Positions 1-34,322 of a stretch of DNA of 35,415 nucleotides are shown here, one piece after another. A program made the translations under genes and the position numbers. The DNA lies in the NCBI GenBank assembly GCA_030156435.1, contig JASGMM010000016.1, positions 1 through 35,415 of the forward strand, in the 5' to 3' direction. The stretch's first letter is position 1. Every line of letters begins with the position of its first letter. The notes beneath the pieces were generated by a model that was not told where the DNA came from, did not search any database, and worked only from the letters and a program-made list of their open reading frames with translations. This DNA comes from Clostridiales bacterium (lineage in GTDB: Bacteria; Bacillota; Clostridia; Mahellales; Mahellaceae).

Positions 1-375
1 GAGGTATTCCTGCAGCTTATCCATTACCTCACCGAAGCGCTGGAAATGGACTATTTCCCTCTCGCGCAGGAATTTAAGAGGTTCCATGACGTCCGGATCG
101 TCGGCGAGGTCGAGCAAGTGCTCATATGTGGCCCGGGCTTTTTGCTCGGCAGCCATATCCTCGTGAATATCAGCTATCGGATCACCTTTGGACTGTATAT
201 AGGCTGCGTTAAAGGGCACGCCTGTGCCGGTGCTGGGATATATACCCTTATCATGGTCAGTATAATAGACGCAATTATCGGTGGCTTTTATCTGTTCTAT
301 GCTGGCGTCTTTTGTGAGCTGATATACCATAGAGCCTATCATTTCGAAGTGGGCGAGCTCTTCGGTGCCGACATG
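1..375 (-). pseudogene. cotJC: C-terminal part of a CotJC-type manganese catalase, cut by a recombinase element
   Basis: Reading the minus strand from 375 down to the window edge gives 125 uninterrupted codons that match the C-terminal part of CotJC/Mn-catalase spore-coat proteins. It begins with GTEELAHFEM, continues through DHDKGIYP, GVPFNAAYIQSKGDP and EDMAAEQKARATYEHLLDL, and ends at the window edge with FLREREIVHFQRFGE. Mn-catalases bind two Mn ions through Glu and His; the EELAH pair, the AAEQ Glu and the EIVH His are present. The first metal-ligand Glu and roughly the first 60-70 residues are absent. Homology stops at codons 370-372 and an in-frame TAA follows at 376-378. The recombinase stop codon lies only 14 bases further on. 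The true C-terminus is beyond the window. Identity is confident; whether the gene can be restored by excision is unknown. Confidence 0.88.
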
Positions 376-392
376 TTATCAATGATAAACTA
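364..392. other. Probable attachment-site junction (att) between cotJC and the mobile element
   Basis: Catalase homology ends at 370-372 and the recombinase stop codon is at 390-392, so the recombination core must lie in this short interval. Large serine recombinases use a 2-bp core inside a 40-60 bp site, and the recombinase gene commonly sits at one end of the element. The exact core cannot be fixed without the other junction. Confidence 0.55.
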
Positions 393-1976
393 TCCGGGCA
401 ATTTGGGGTATAATACGAGTTCAAAATCACCGGGACTATTATGCCAACGCCCGTTAACGGTTTTTGTATAAACCACTTTGTCGAGCACCTCTTTCAAGAG
501 CTTGTTTTTAAGTACGGGGTCGTCCGTAGATTTATACAGTTGGAGGATTTTCTCGATTTTAGGTATTGCAATACTATCCTCATTCATTCTCTGGCCTGAT
601 TTTAAGTTATCGAGCAACATATCCCGATCTTTTTGTGCTTTTTCAAGCCTGTCATTGATAATCTTGGAACGCTCTAAAAATACATCTGTCGAATAAACAC
701 CTTGTTCAAGTAAGTCATACAGGCTGCTCATTTGTTTCTCTAGGGTTTTGATCTGCTTATTCAGCTTATTAACGGCAGACTTTTTGATTTCCAACTGAGT
801 GCTTTTAGCAGTTTTATTTTTATTATCTCTGTTCCACTTAATTTTATAGTTTTCAAGCCATTCTTCCAGAGATTGCAACACCCGTTCCTCAACAAGATGT
901 AACGGAGCGCTTACATTGGGGCAGGCGGTAGAATAACACATAAGGGTGTCTGCCTGCTGGCTGTTGGCATAAGGCCGACGCACCATTTTTCGGCCGCAGA
1001 AGCCGCATACCACTATACCGGCCAGTGGATTTTTAATGGGCATACCCTTAGGCGCTGGTTTAGACGGATTATTCGAAAGAAATTCCTGAGCAAGGTTCCA
1101 TGTTTGTTCATCTACGAGTGCTTCGTGGATGCCATCGGACAACAAATATTCATTAGGCCCCTTTCTGGGGCGCGTTTTTTCTATCTGCCCGTCAACCATT
1201 TTTTTAACTGTCTGGCGCCAATTCCAGCGTATTTTACCGACATATACGGGATTGCGCAATATGTTCTGAATAGAAGAAGTAACCCATATATCAGCTTTTG
1301 CAGGAGGAATATGCAAATCATTAAGTTTTCTTGCGATAAGACTGGTACCGAGGCGTTTATAGGTTCCATCCGGTTGCAATTCGCCTTTAGTATAAAGTTC
1401 AAAAATCAACCGGACAATATCAGCTTGTTCCGGAAACGGTTCCAGCGTATAGCCCTTATCATTTTGGAGTTTTTTGCGAACATAGCCATATGGTGGGACA
1501 TTCCCCATGTATTTACCTTCTTTAACAGAAGCGATACGTCCGTTTTGAAGCCTGCGGTTTATGGTCTTATACTCTCTGCGGCTCATAAACAAACCGAATT
1601 CAAAATATTCTTCATCGAATTCATTTTGAGGGTCATAAGTTTTCATAGGTGTAATGATTTTAGCGTTTGAATATTTGAATGTCTGAGCGACTATACCCTG
1701 GTCGATAGTATCACCGCGGGCAAGACGTTCTATTTCCATGACCAGTACGCCGTCCCACATTCCTTGTTCAACGTCGACAAGGAGTTGCTGCATAACAGGA
1801 CGTGCGGCGATAGTTTCGCCCGAGACGATTTCTCTGTATATTTTTGTTATGTTCAGGTTCAGCTTTTTTGCCAGTTCCAGCAATATTTGCTCATGTCTTT
1901 TAAGGGTTTCGCCCTCACCCCGGGCTTCTGCTTCAAGGTCGGCTCTTGATTTTCTAAGGTACAAACAATACTGCAT
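390..1976 (-). CDS. Large serine recombinase (SpoIVCA/phage integrase type)
   Basis: This 528-residue protein is a site-specific DNA recombinase. It has an N-terminal resolvase domain with the catalytic Ser at residue 10 in YLRKSR, and the conserved block EIERLARGD near residue 82. A recombinase domain follows at about residues 160-270 (PPYGYVRKK, NILRNPVYVGKIRW). Next comes a zinc-ribbon-like segment with CGFCGRKM and a second Cys pair, then a coiled coil at about residues 395-455 typical of large serine integrases. Length is normal (450-550) and the frame is intact. The start has the ribosome site AAGGAATGAG. The gene ends 14 bases from the cotJC remnant, which marks it as the integrase of the element inserted there. 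The B. subtilis skin element (in sigK) uses the same enzyme class in the same arrangement; a developmental role here is inference. Confidence 0.93.
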   Translation of the reverse strand: MQYCLYLRKSRADLEAEARGEGETLKRHEQILLELAKKLNLNITKIYREIVSGETIAARPVMQQLLVDVEQGMWDGVLVMEIERLARGDTIDQGIVAQTFKYSNAKIITPMKTYDPQNEFDEEYFEFGLFMSRREYKTINRRLQNGRIASVKEGKYMGNVPPYGYVRKKLQNDKGYTLEPFPEQADIVRLIFELYTKGELQPDGTYKRLGTSLIARKLNDLHIPPAKADIWVTSSIQNILRNPVYVGKIRWNWRQTVKKMVDGQIEKTRPRKGPNEYLLSDGIHEALVDEQTWNLAQEFLSNNPSKPAPKGMPIKNPLAGIVVCGFCGRKMVRRPYANSQQADTLMCYSTACPNVSAPLHLVEERVLQSLEEWLENYKIKWNRDNKNKTAKSTQLEIKKSAVNKLNKQIKTLEKQMSSLYDLLEQGVYSTDVFLERSKIINDRLEKAQKDRDMLLDNLKSGQRMNEDSIAIPKIEKILQLYKSTDDPVLKNKLLKEVLDKVVYTKTVNGRWHNSPGDFELVLYPKLPG

Positions 1977-2010
1977 ATTATCTCATTCCTTATAAATAAT
2001 GTTGTTGTCA

Positions 2011-2238
2011 TTAATATGTGTTTGGTGCGCCGGATGTTTGCCCTTCTCTGTCTTCAATAGATTTTATAAGACTAATAACAGTTTTAATATCTTTTGGAGT
2101 TAAAACACTATTATCATCCAGAGTAAGATGAAGGTAGAAATTATTTGTATTTTTTATATTATTCCAAAACTTCAGTAATTCCAGCTCATCTTTCAATGCG
2201 TTTGATACTGCACCGTAATCAAGTGAATAATCTCTCAT
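2011..2238 (-). CDS. Small hypothetical protein of the integrated element
   Basis: A 75-residue acidic soluble protein with no recognised family. It has no predicted membrane segment or Cys motif; the middle (FYLHLTLDDNSVLTPKDIK) looks like a compact alpha/beta fold. I chose the ATG at 2238 because GGAGAGGTG stands 6 bases ahead of it, whereas an in-frame ATG at 2253 overlaps this ribosome site. It lies between the ImmA-like peptidase and the recombinase, all in the same direction, so it is probably co-transcribed with the element's control module. Its role is unknown. Confidence 0.65.
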   Translation of the reverse strand: MRDYSLDYGAVSNALKDELELLKFWNNIKNTNNFYLHLTLDDNSVLTPKDIKTVISLIKSIEDREGQTSGAPNTY

Positions 2239-2252
2239 TGGGCACCTCTCCA

Positions 2253-2720
2253 TTATAATAATTTTGATCTATAACATTTACGTAAAGATTCCAGCTTATA
2301 TTCGATAAGTTGAACAGGGACATTGAAACAAGACGCAATGTCCTCGTTGCACATATTACAGAGTATGTATTCATTCAGATCTTTTTCATCGATTAACAGT
2401 TCCGCAGCAAAAATATTTGCCTGTCGTTCATACGGTCCTATGGGGAATAAAGTATATTCACGCAGGCAATATGTATCGCAGGATGAATGCAATATGGCAT
2501 GGCCGAGTTCATGAGCGGCCACTACCTCTCTGCTTACATCATCCAGCAGGCTATTTATAACTATAAACTTATTACGGAGCATTTTAACCGAGTATCCTTT
2601 GGTCTGATCGGTAAATGACCAGTAGATGACCTGTATACCGGTTTCTTTTGCAATTTTCAGCGGATTTCTCGTACCGTATTTGCGTATGAGGTTTTTCACT
2701 CGGATGTGAATATTAACCAT
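2253..2720 (-). CDS. ImmA/IrrE-family metallopeptidase
   Basis: This 155-residue protein carries the zinc-protease motif HELGH within VVAAHELGHAILH near residue 70. A downstream ERQANIFAAELL segment supplies the third Glu ligand, as in the ImmA/IrrE family (DUF955). In ICEBs1 and related elements ImmA cleaves the XRE-type repressor ImmR to induce excision. Here the gene sits directly downstream of an XRE regulator (itself broken) and upstream of the recombinase, matching that control module. The start has the ribosome site AGTGAGGTG. The gene appears intact, but its usual partner is frameshifted, so the switch may no longer work. Confidence 0.88.
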   Translation of the reverse strand: MVNIHIRVKNLIRKYGTRNPLKIAKETGIQVIYWSFTDQTKGYSVKMLRNKFIVINSLLDDVSREVVAAHELGHAILHSSCDTYCLREYTLFPIGPYERQANIFAAELLIDEKDLNEYILCNMCNEDIASCFNVPVQLIEYKLESLRKCYRSKLL

Positions 2721-2751
2721 GCGGTATACACCTCACTCTTTGTTATCTTTT

Positions 2752-3198
2752 TTATTTTTTGCCGTATTTTCCCTTATTTATTTTTTTACTGCGAAGGAAG
2801 ACTTCCATGAGACTGTACATGAGCTGCTCTTTATCTTCGTCTGAAACCTTGTCATTCATGAAAAAGGCACGTGTATGCTGCATTACGTCTTCGTATTGCT
2901 TAATATCCCGTTTCGATATCTTCTGCAGGAATAGAAGGAATATTATCGCGGCTGTTAGATGGAACAGCATCAATATAGCCCGCAGCTATCATGAAGTCCT
3001 CATACGTTACGTTATTATAACCAGCTTCTGCTAGCTTTCTGATAGTATCCGGTTCGGGGGAAACTTTGGTTACCTTTCTGAGCAGCCGTGATATATGAGC
3101 CGGACTGATTCCGCTGTCATCAGCATACTTTCTTATGCTTCTATCACCCTTTGCGGTATTTAGCAATTCGGCGAACTTTTCTTTGTCAAATTCAGCAA
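2752..3198 (-). pseudogene. XRE-family regulator, frameshifted and missing its start
   Basis: The minus strand from about 3195 encodes DKEKFAELLNTAKGDRSIR, then a helix-turn-helix (YADDSGISPAHISRLLRKV) and TIRKLAEAGYNNVTYEDFM. This is the pattern of short XRE regulators of phages and conjugative elements. The frame ends at 2900, but the next frame continues from about 2925 with KRDIKQYEDVMQHTRAFF and a Lys-rich tail ending at 2752, which is the expected C-terminal domain. A one-base shift near 2920-2930 therefore splits the gene. At the other end the natural start is gone: the open frame runs into antisense of a VirD4 scrap, so upstream codons are not native. It probably paired with the ImmA-like protease. 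Confidence 0.7.
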
Positions 3199-3406
3199 AG
3201 TAGTAATAGCCAATACAAAGATACCCGGGACAAAAGGCAGCGATCCGTTCTAGGACAGGGCGGAGCAAAACCTGCTTAAGGCGCTGCTGATGTACGTGGT
3301 CAAAGAAATGCCGATTCAGGACAGGCATCTGGCATCGGTATACAGTATGTTAGCAGCGGCTGATCCAAAACAGATAAACAAAATTGTTATAAGCCACGCG
3401 ATTTGA
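3188..3406 (+). pseudogene. Remnant of a VirD4/TraG-type coupling protein
   Basis: The plus strand reads VVIANTKIPGTKGSDPF, a TAG stop at 3251-3253, then DRAEQNLLKALLMYVVKEMP and HLASVYSMLAAADPKQINKI before TGA at 3404. This matches the part of type IV coupling ATPases where NVIANT and SDPFW precede an amphipathic helix; the expected Trp after SDPF is replaced by TAG, a one-base change from TGG. Only about 70 of several hundred codons remain. It suggests that the element was once conjugative (ICE-like), not a phage. Family assignment rests on remembered motif order. Confidence 0.6.
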
Positions 3407-6285: not shown

Positions 6286-6604
6286 GATAAATTGCAAAAT
6301 ATACGACCGCGGCGTGTAATCAATCATCTCATGGGAACGACTGTTTTAAGGCCTAAGATGGGTTTGCTCTGCTTTAAAAGCCCGATTCGGATATATGTCA
6401 AGCCTATCGCAAGTTATTGATGGAGGCCGGAGGCAGGCCGCCTGAGCATGGACGCGAATTGCCGGCGCTAGCTTGCGCAAGCGAAGCGAATTGTAAGTAC
6501 GCCAGCAATATTTCAAGGTGTTCTCCGGTTTTATATCATTTGCATCGCTTTATATCGCCCGTTTCAGTCATATATTACGAATTGCAGGAAATTCTATGCT
6601 ATCC
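6286..6604. other. Intergenic stretch without a convincing gene
   Basis: This lies between the divergent Pro-rich gene and rpiB. It contains a GC-rich patch near 6420-6490 with a 12-bp palindrome GCTTGCGCAAGC (6471-6482) flanked by two copies of GCGAATTG. An open frame crosses it, but it has no ribosome site and runs out of frame into rpiB, so I do not call it. It may be a decayed gene. Confidence 0.5.
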
Positions 6605-14748: not shown

Positions 14749-16598
14749 GAGGGGAAAAGGATTTTTTAACAGCGCTTAAAGATAAAGCTTTATTGTGTGA
14801 CGGCGCTATGGGGACCATGTTGCGCGAGCGCGGGGCCGATAGCGAAATATGCCTTGAGTACACGAACATATCGCAGCCCGATATGGTACTGACCTTGCAC
14901 AAGGATTATATAAGTGCTGGTGCAGATATAATAGAGACTAATACGTTTGGGGCCAATAGATTTAAACTAGCTGTTTATGGCTTAGAGGATAGGGTTGCGG
15001 ACATAAACCGACAGGCTGCGAAATTGGCCAGGCAGGCGGCAGGGGATAACATTTGGGTTTTAGGTGCAGTTGGACCTATAGGCGTGCCGCTGATACCGGT
15101 GAACGAGAAGGATCGCGGCGATATTTATGAAGCTTATAGGGAGCAGATAGAGGCATTGTGCTGCGAAGGCGTGGATGCTATTATAGCCGAGACGATGGGC
15201 AGCACGCTCGAAGCTGAGATGGCTATAAAAGCCGCTAAGGACGCGGCCGATATTCCTGTGATATGTCAATTTTCTTTATTGCCTGATGGCTTTGATTCTT
15301 CTGGCGAAAGCTTGCAGAGTGTAGCGGAGTTTCTAAAGCATTGCAACGCTGATGTAGTCGGATTAAACTGTGGCAGCGGTCCGCGCGACATGGTAGAATT
15401 TATGAAATTCATTGCGGAATATATGGATGGTTCTAAATTCTTATCCATACAGCCAAACGCGGGTTTCGCTTATTATGCGCAAGGCCGGCTTCAATACAAA
15501 GCCAAAGCCGATTACTTTGCATCGTATGTAAAGGACTATATTGGACTCAAAGTAAATATAATAGGCGGTTGCTGTGGTACCACGCCGCAGCATATAGCAG
15601 CAATGCGCAGCGTATTGGATGAGAACACGAGGCTTGAAACATCGAATACGATTACCGTGGAGCCTGGTACGATTACGTCAGAAGTAAGCCGATCCGAATT
15701 GACACAGCTTGGCATTGCAAGGACCGGTAATATTTTAGAAAAGATAGAACGGAAATTTGTTGTGACGGTGGAAATGGATCCACCTAAAGGCACGGATATA
15801 GAAAAAGCATTGGAAGGTGCGCGCGCCTTGAAATCCTGCGGCGTGGATGCCGTCAATATAGCCGACAGCCCCATGGCCAGGGTAAGGGTAAGCCCTATAG
15901 CACTGGCGACGCGCATAAAACAGGAGGTAGGTCTGGATGCTATATTGCATTTCACGTGCAGGGACAGAAATCTTATAGGTATCCAATCCGAGCTTATAGG
16001 CGCAGCCGTTCTTGGCATAAACAATGTGCTGGCTTTAACAGGGGACCCGCCTTCTATCGGGGATCATCCCAAGGCCACGGGTGTTTTCGATATAACATCG
16101 GAAGGGCTGGTATACATATTGGATGCCTTGAATCGAGGCCGCGACTATATGGGTAATGCCTTGGAGGGCAGCACAAATTTTGCCATAGGCGTAGCCTTTA
16201 ACCCCAATGCCGATGATCCTGGAGCAGAGCTTGAGAAATTGGCTAAAAAAATCGAAAATGGTGCTAACTTCATACAAACACAACCCATATATGATATGCA
16301 AACCGTTGAAAAAATGGTAAAGAACATAGCTGATTATAATATACCGGTCCTTATGGGCATATTGCCGCTTAGGAGTTATAAACATGCAGAGTTTTTGCAT
16401 AATGAGGTGCCGGGTATAACTATACCACTTGACATACGCCAACGCATGAAAAATGCCGGCGATAATGCTCTGGATGAAGGCGTGGCCATAGCGGCCGAGC
16501 TGATAAAGGAATGCCGGGGCATGGTTAGCGGCGTTTATATAATGCCACCGTTTGGACGGTATGATATGGTGGAAAAGATAATGGCCGAGATAGCTTGA
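14745..16598 (+). CDS. Bifunctional homocysteine S-methyltransferase / methylenetetrahydrofolate reductase (YitJ type)
   Basis: A 617-residue fusion enzyme linking folate C1 units to methionine synthesis. Residues 1-285 are a homocysteine methyltransferase domain with LLCDGAMGTMLRERG, GLNCGSGP and the zinc Cys pair in IIGGCCGTTPQHIAAM. Residues about 335-617 are a MetF-like TIM barrel (VTVEMDPPKGTDIEKAL, GVDAVNIADSPMARVRVSP, ALTGDPPSIGDHPKATGVFD). This matches B. subtilis YitJ in size and order. An in-frame ATG at 14607 lies deep inside the preceding gene, so I use 14745, which forms an ATGA overlap with the glycosylase and follows GGAAGG. No SAM riboswitch leader is present, unlike many metF/yitJ genes, because the gene is internal to an operon. 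Confidence 0.95.
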   Translation: MRGEKDFLTALKDKALLCDGAMGTMLRERGADSEICLEYTNISQPDMVLTLHKDYISAGADIIETNTFGANRFKLAVYGLEDRVADINRQAAKLARQAAGDNIWVLGAVGPIGVPLIPVNEKDRGDIYEAYREQIEALCCEGVDAIIAETMGSTLEAEMAIKAAKDAADIPVICQFSLLPDGFDSSGESLQSVAEFLKHCNADVVGLNCGSGPRDMVEFMKFIAEYMDGSKFLSIQPNAGFAYYAQGRLQYKAKADYFASYVKDYIGLKVNIIGGCCGTTPQHIAAMRSVLDENTRLETSNTITVEPGTITSEVSRSELTQLGIARTGNILEKIERKFVVTVEMDPPKGTDIEKALEGARALKSCGVDAVNIADSPMARVRVSPIALATRIKQEVGLDAILHFTCRDRNLIGIQSELIGAAVLGINNVLALTGDPPSIGDHPKATGVFDITSEGLVYILDALNRGRDYMGNALEGSTNFAIGVAFNPNADDPGAELEKLAKKIENGANFIQTQPIYDMQTVEKMVKNIADYNIPVLMGILPLRSYKHAEFLHNEVPGITIPLDIRQRMKNAGDNALDEGVAIAAELIKECRGMVSGVYIMPPFGRYDMVEKIMAEIA

Positions 16599-17569: not shown

Positions 17570-17684
17570 TAGCAGATCGTTTGTTTATTCTTGGTTAATA
17601 TTAGGGCAAGCTGCTGCTATAATTTGGGGGAAAATATTATTGCCAACAACCTTGATATTGTGATATACTTCCATTGAATGGTTT
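17570..17684 (+). repeat. Promoter-module repeat, copy A
   Basis: About 113 bases align with 34083-34195 at roughly 78% identity by eye, with one single-base gap. Best-conserved blocks are AGCAGATC, GGTTAAT, GCAAG, ATAATT and the 20-base TATTGTGATATACTTCCATT. It ends about 35 bases before a small membrane-protein gene. Confidence 0.8.
17640..17669 (+). promoter_or_regulatory. Promoter inside repeat copy A
   Basis: TTGCCA (17640-17645) and TATACT (17664-17669) are separated by 18 bases. The -10 side is identical in copy B. It would drive the small membrane-protein gene at 17718. Confidence 0.6.
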
Positions 17685-34051: not shown

Positions 34052-34072
34052 GAAAGCAAGAAGGCTTTCTTT
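34052..34072 (+). terminator. Possible terminator after csoR
   Basis: A 6-bp perfect stem GAAAGC/GCTTTC with a 6-base loop and a short T-run, about 95 bases after the csoR stop. Confidence 0.35.
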
Positions 34073-34082
34073 GACAGCTTAC

Positions 34083-34195
34083 AGCAGATCATTTATTTGT
34101 TGTCGGTTAATGTTAGAGCAAGTTACTGCCATAATTCGGAGCTAAATGTTCTTGTCAATGACTTAGTATTGTGATATACTTCCATTAAGAGGTTC
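34083..34195 (+). repeat. Promoter-module repeat, copy B
   Basis: Matches 17571-17683 at roughly 78% by eye over 113 bases. Shared blocks include AGCAGATC, GGTTAAT, GCAAG and TATTGTGATATACTTCCATT. Flanking sequences are unrelated apart from a short TTTGACA upstream of both. Confidence 0.8.
34152..34180 (+). promoter_or_regulatory. Promoter inside repeat copy B
   Basis: TTGTCA (34152-34157) and TATACT (34175-34180) have a 17-base spacer. It would drive the TM2-domain gene, leaving a leader of about 135 bases. Confidence 0.62.
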
Positions 34196-34322
34196 CTTCT
34201 CCAATTTTGTTTTATTGTATAGAGGTAGGAACTGCCGATCTAAATTCCACGGATTTTTGGACATTTTCTGGGCACTGCTTTTTATATAAGCTAAAAAATT
34301 AAAAAATGGAGGTAAATAAACT

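Follow-up and report, generated by a model that had tools for sequence, protein, structure and literature searches.

The spore-coat gene cotJC of Clostridia appears to host a class of sporulation-gene intervening elements, in which large serine recombinases (LSRs) dedicated to three sites in the gene would act with a directionality factor (RDF) to excise the inserted DNA late in sporulation and so rejoin cotJC, an account that we hold to be quite probable. Only a handful of sporulation genes, mostly in Bacillus and Clostridioides difficile, are known to host DNA that is excised during development, and a search of the literature outside subscription found no published report of an interrupted cotJC. 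Among Clostridia genomes with a cotJC, about one sixth carry it split, with three insertion sites and several integrase lineages, and these split genes form a large natural data set on phages becoming tied to host development. The sets of LSR, att sites and RDF could be used as tools, and the promoter rule described below is testable.

The window (the whole stretch of DNA analysed, 35,415 bases) is the whole of contig C54 of a 2.19 Mb genome in 104 contigs, here called G000. By comparison with two genomes of the same genus, G001 and G002, it contains the attR junction of an LSR element that has entered cotJC at the codons of the DIGTEELAH motif, with the C-terminal cotJC piece beside it. Its features are as follows.

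1-360, minus strand: C-terminal part of cotJC, which encodes a manganese-catalase-like spore coat protein; the contig edge truncates it at base 1.
358-390, minus strand: attR, comprising the crossover region GAAGAG (358-363) and the attP-left arm (364-390).
390-1976, minus strand: intact LSR P0001 of 528 amino acids, its 3' end abutting attR, with Resolvase, Recombinase and Zn-ribbon domains.
2011-2253, minus strand: ORF of 80 amino acids, function unassigned, conserved in G002 inside a 93% identical stretch.
2253-2720, minus strand: ImmA/IrrE-type metallopeptidase (PF06114, E=8e-22).
2900-3328, minus strand: HTH_3 regulator, disrupted relative to G002 (a 177-amino-acid ORF there), with about 1 kb lost at 3190-3196.
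3190-3384, minus strand: final segment with homology to the G002 element, 93% identical and about 1 kb off the expected G002 position.

The cotJC piece matches PF05067 at window 7-375 on the minus strand (profile positions 61-196, E=6e-34) and its reading frame is uninterrupted between the junction and the contig edge. An intact recombinase of 528 residues had been noted beside the junction from the sequence alone, and its assignment to the LSR class holds, with PF00239, PF07508 and PF13408 all above cut-off and an integrase family of PHROG matched at E=4e-104. Inspection by eye showed no conserved mother-cell promoter ahead of this LSR, where a sigma-E or sigma-K promoter had been suggested as something to look for. 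The 80-amino-acid ORF at 2011-2253 has no match in Pfam or PHROG; it was considered as an RDF and set aside, being without a family match and distinct from the family-wide small ORF discussed below. Rfam and tRNA scans over the window were empty. A short REP-like sequence at about 6420-6590 recurs in dozens of copies, in either orientation, in G001 and G002, and window positions 17571-17683 and 34052-34268 share 75-79% similarity with a single place in the G002 element.

In G002, which is a single contig, the N-terminal piece of cotJC lies at 2,541,492 and the C-terminal piece at 2,698,414, on the same strand and 157 kb apart, with an LSR in the same place that is 92% identical to that of the window. 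The sequence CCGACATGTTATCAATGATA (window 368-387, plus strand) is an attachment arm that also adjoins the N-piece in G002; the junction arms TTATCATTGATAACATATCGG and CCGACATGTTATCAATGATA are near-palindromic and the core common to both junctions is AAGA. When the G002 pieces are joined in silico at this shared core they give a CotJC of 190 amino acids that is gap-free against the family, and in G001 cotJC is uninterrupted and so represents the empty site. The split gene, the att arms and the empty site of a skin-like element are thus all found, and the PF05067 C-piece together with the G002 split and the G001 empty site confirms the earlier note's proposal of a serine-recombinase element inside cotJC. 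Homology to intact cotJC ends at the junction because window 361-390 is the attachment arm of the element. The earlier note had recognised this stop but set the boundary slightly off, at the codons GTC-GGC (367-372); the crossover region shared by the junctions lies within GAAGAG (~358-363), and GTC-GGC, before the crossover, lies in an attP segment similar to the gene. No tRNA was found in the 157-kb element of G002. ORFs with a ParM-like, CpaE/TadA-like, primase-like, transposase or Cas7-like appearance were noted by eye between 2,541,700 and 2,696,800 (L035, L054-L061 and L036), and on this inspection the insert looks like a mobile element.

Homology of the window to the G002 element runs from 1 to 3196 and, after the loss of about 1 kb, from 3190 to 3384, where it ends, in agreement with the view that the neighbouring element genes are decayed; from about 4.7 kb the window consists of ordinary chromosomal DNA whose G002 counterpart is at 271-284 kb, a long way from cotJC. 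The N-piece is absent from the window, as had been observed before, and a search of the G000 genome for an orphan copy recovered 100 bp of it at the end of contig C3, where it runs straight into a znuB-like start codon without an attP arm. In this contig (L034) the N-piece continues in frame into the beginning of a znuB-like permease; the junction was tried as attL and rejected for the missing attP arm. Both C3 ends (16380-16487 and 3-103) match the cotJC-element region of G002 over about 100 bp, which looks like an assembly-graph overlap, with rearrangement as the alternative. The G000 N-piece ends ...GGTACTGAAGAA and the C-piece begins GAGCTCGCC..., and the two are consistent in frame, with an attL that is not intact. 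No candidate RDF of the window's LSR family was found in the G000 assembly. A working switch in G000 is doubtful because the element is rearranged and without a candidate RDF, and the switch has probably been lost.

For G000 only, and compatibly with the general explanation, the copy may therefore be a dead remnant, an element broken by chromosomal rearrangement whose cotJC is no longer reassembled. We think this somewhat likely, given an element that gives way to host chromosome about 3.4 kb from the junction, the RDF that was not found and the fusion of the N-piece to the znuB-like gene. Set against it are a C-piece with w of about 0.05 relative to G002, an N-piece with zero amino-acid changes in 31 codons in the same comparison, and the fragmented state of the assembly, in which the C3 ends resemble overlaps.

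The wider occurrence of split cotJC was assessed in a sample of 393 genomes of the class Clostridia, 259 of which had a CotJC-type match, with a breakpoint follow-up of the 47 genomes that had weak or multiple matches. About 43 of the 259 carry cotJC in two to four pieces (a hand count, in which weaker matches beside an intact paralogue were unlisted). Three breakpoints recur, at profile positions ~29-33, 61-67 and 146-152, around the codons for GGPDGE (GE(L)), GTEELAH (EELAH) and AAEQKA respectively. CotJC aligns to the Lactobacillus plantarum manganese catalase 1JKU, and the three sites are presumably metal-ligand positions of manganese catalases. The gene is in three pieces in G127, G161, G390, G291, G027 and G243 and in four in G147. 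Each LSR lineage keeps to one site: site 1 has two lineages, site 2 no fewer than two and site 3 one main lineage. An LSR lies inside the element in all 25 split genes that were fetched, its 3' end at the junction in nearly all; the minimal elements are about 3 kb. In 24 of these 25, in silico joining produced a CotJC match that covers the profile from end to end, and in 21 the aligned lengths were equal, with small differences or partial genes otherwise. The joined pieces are in frame at about 190 amino acids, so that the frame restoration of a skin-like element is reproduced in silico. Junctions on the same contig are collinear and in one orientation in 27 of 28 cases (p ~1e-7). The exception is G355 (G355:C1, 198620 and 873266; L086 and L087), alone among the complete genomes with a split cotJC in having its pieces in a non-excisable order. 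In two others (L074 in G236 and L075 in G065) the N- and C-parts are directly adjacent at site 2, apparently in different frames, and these may be scars left by an imprecise loss or by frameshifts.

The split pieces are under strong purifying selection, judging by the substitutions that separate related copies. The C-pieces of G000 and G002 differ by 26 synonymous and 6 nonsynonymous changes (w=0.05); between the split pieces of G005 and G299 there are 13 nonsynonymous differences where neutrality would predict 203, and between the doubly split genes of G127 and G390 there are 22 where it would predict 167. Divergent pairs, with dS above ~1, have w of 0.13-0.6 and are uninformative. Between G000 and G002 dS is 0.33 for the LSR and 0.46 for the cotJC piece, and for two Caproiciproducens loci (L138 and L143) it is 0.80 and 0.84 respectively, with w=0.08. 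Because dS of the cotJC piece and of the LSR is comparable, these values suggest that the insertion was inherited by descent and that selection continued afterwards; to independent recent insertions we leave a small residual chance.

Named genomes scanned with the family alignment of the window's LSR yielded 80 loci, and a cotJC piece lies directly beyond the LSR in 51 of them, with something else there in 25 and too short a flank in 4. The loci flanked by cotJC include Clostridium methylpentosum DSM 5476, Caproiciproducens galactitolivorans BS-1, Tissierella sp. P1, Anaeromonas frigoriresistens, Anaerovorax odorimutans DSM 5092, Intestinibacillus massiliensis, Paenibacillus sp. 598K and P. 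lacisoli. In a separate set of 80 viral contigs, 16 also carry cotJC pieces, and some of the cotJC insertions are viral contigs of prophage size. The LSR tree clusters by target yet requires about 20 changes, which we read as a signal blurred by target switching or missing flanks. Relatives of the LSR were also seen in LysM/GH18 (YaaH/SleL-like) or asparagine synthase genes (L159, L184, L171, L186, L126, L185 and L180), which probably represent additional sporulation genes that are split.

A small ORF (median 62 amino acids) accompanies the LSR in about 128 loci of the window's LSR family, nearly always divergent from it, and has no match to any Pfam or PHROG family; in G002 it is found at the element end opposite the LSR, some 100 bp from the N-piece. 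This LSR partner protein of about 60 amino acids, not previously described, is a candidate RDF. Many copies carry the motif ATAGGACA-N12-(A/C)ATAnAnT 45-57 nt before the start codon of the candidate, a pattern noticed by inspecting the very sequences used for the counts and then tested against shuffles and relatives. ATAGGACA is present in 28 of 113 upstream sequences (0.4 expected). A relaxed motif occurs in 32 of 47 cotJC-inserted copies (3.9 expected), leaving roughly a third without it; it is found in 4/4 copies at yaaH or asparagine synthase genes and in 3/11 at other targets, one of these three (L174) having a cotJC piece about 3 kb off. A second relaxed pattern separates cotJC-inserted copies (28/49) from others (3/36; Fisher p=3e-6). 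The upstream region of the G002 candidate, as delimited, has no clear motif, and a scan of the RDF upstream regions with a loose sigma-E/sigma-K consensus found little. Promoters read by sigma-E consist of an 8-nt -35 element, a 12-bp spacer and a 10-nt -10 element (PMC517825). The layout of the candidate-RDF motif fits such promoters. The consensus of SpoIIID is WWRRACARNY, and we take the ACA box of the motif to resemble SpoIIID sites. The motif may thus be read by sigma-E and SpoIIID.

In the explanation that we propose, each LSR would place its element, be it a phage, a large mobile element or a shrunken remnant, at one fixed site in cotJC. Where the element is intact, sigma-E with SpoIIID would turn on the candidate RDF in the mother cell, in the presence of which the LSR would reverse and the element be excised late in sporulation; cotJC would be restored in frame before the coat is made and the spore chromosome would keep the element. 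A cotJC with several elements would need several excisions, and it seems reasonably likely that one to three independent LSR elements, each on a conserved active-site codon, need removal in the mother cell through RDFs under sigma-E/SpoIIID. Excision of the cotJC elements is what we infer from the sequences compared. The earlier note's idea of cotJC as a host of skin-like elements is well supported once relatives are included, through fixed-site recurrence, dedicated LSR families, in-frame joining, purifying selection and the putative mother-cell-type promoter of the RDF candidate, but not as regards a working switch in G000 itself.

Alternatively, cotJC might merely be a convenient attachment site, chosen for its conserved codons, with the gene lost on insertion and no regulated excision. 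LSRs often choose conserved genes, and the full-size prophage contigs and the 157-kb element found there would fit such a reading, which we nevertheless judge unlikely: anciently split pieces remain under strong purifying selection, genes with two or three insertions keep all pieces open and in frame, the same-contig junctions are collinear, and the putative mother-cell-type promoter of the RDF candidate is enriched in cotJC-inserted copies. That the junction is an assembly or binning artefact at 372-390, as a fragment of a 104-contig assembly that starts inside a gene might lead one to suspect and as had been raised before, is scarcely credible and is refuted by G002, whose single contig has this junction at 93% identity over 3.2 kb, with analogous junctions in more single-contig genomes (G174, G127, G390 and G027).

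Regulated excision from cotJC would have its closest parallel in the skin element of C. difficile (sigK; LSR CD1231, RDF CD1234), likewise an LSR element in a mother-cell sporulation gene. Its RDF, of 72 amino acids and encoded inside the element, is under sigma-E and SpoIIID with a transcription start 14 bp before the start codon (PMC5025042), and the candidate RDF described here is of similar size, with a putative promoter of similar type. In contrast to skin, the target is a structural coat/catalase gene and not a sigma factor, several LSR lineages, three sites and up to three elements per gene are involved, and excision is predicted. SP-beta in spsM of Bacillus subtilis (SprA/SprB) is a full prophage in a mother-cell gene, with an LSR and a small RDF whose promoter is controlled by sporulation (PMC4191935); some cotJC insertions are likewise prophage-size, whereas the gene is different, the sites are multiple and the system is known here from sequence alone. 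The intervening elements vfbin (spoVFB), vrin (spoVR), gin (gerE) and yin (yabG) interrupt sporulation genes and are prophage-derived or not (PMC4191935, PMC5595907, PMC10747680), and the ~3-kb minimal cotJC elements resemble shrunken forms of this kind.

A further likeness is to the integrase of Paenibacillus phage phiIBB_P123, an LSR 58% identical to that of the window. A viral contig of 41,294 bases (L231), the same length as this phage, carries the same small candidate RDF, and related LSRs lie in cotJC of two Paenibacillus genomes (L145 and L166).
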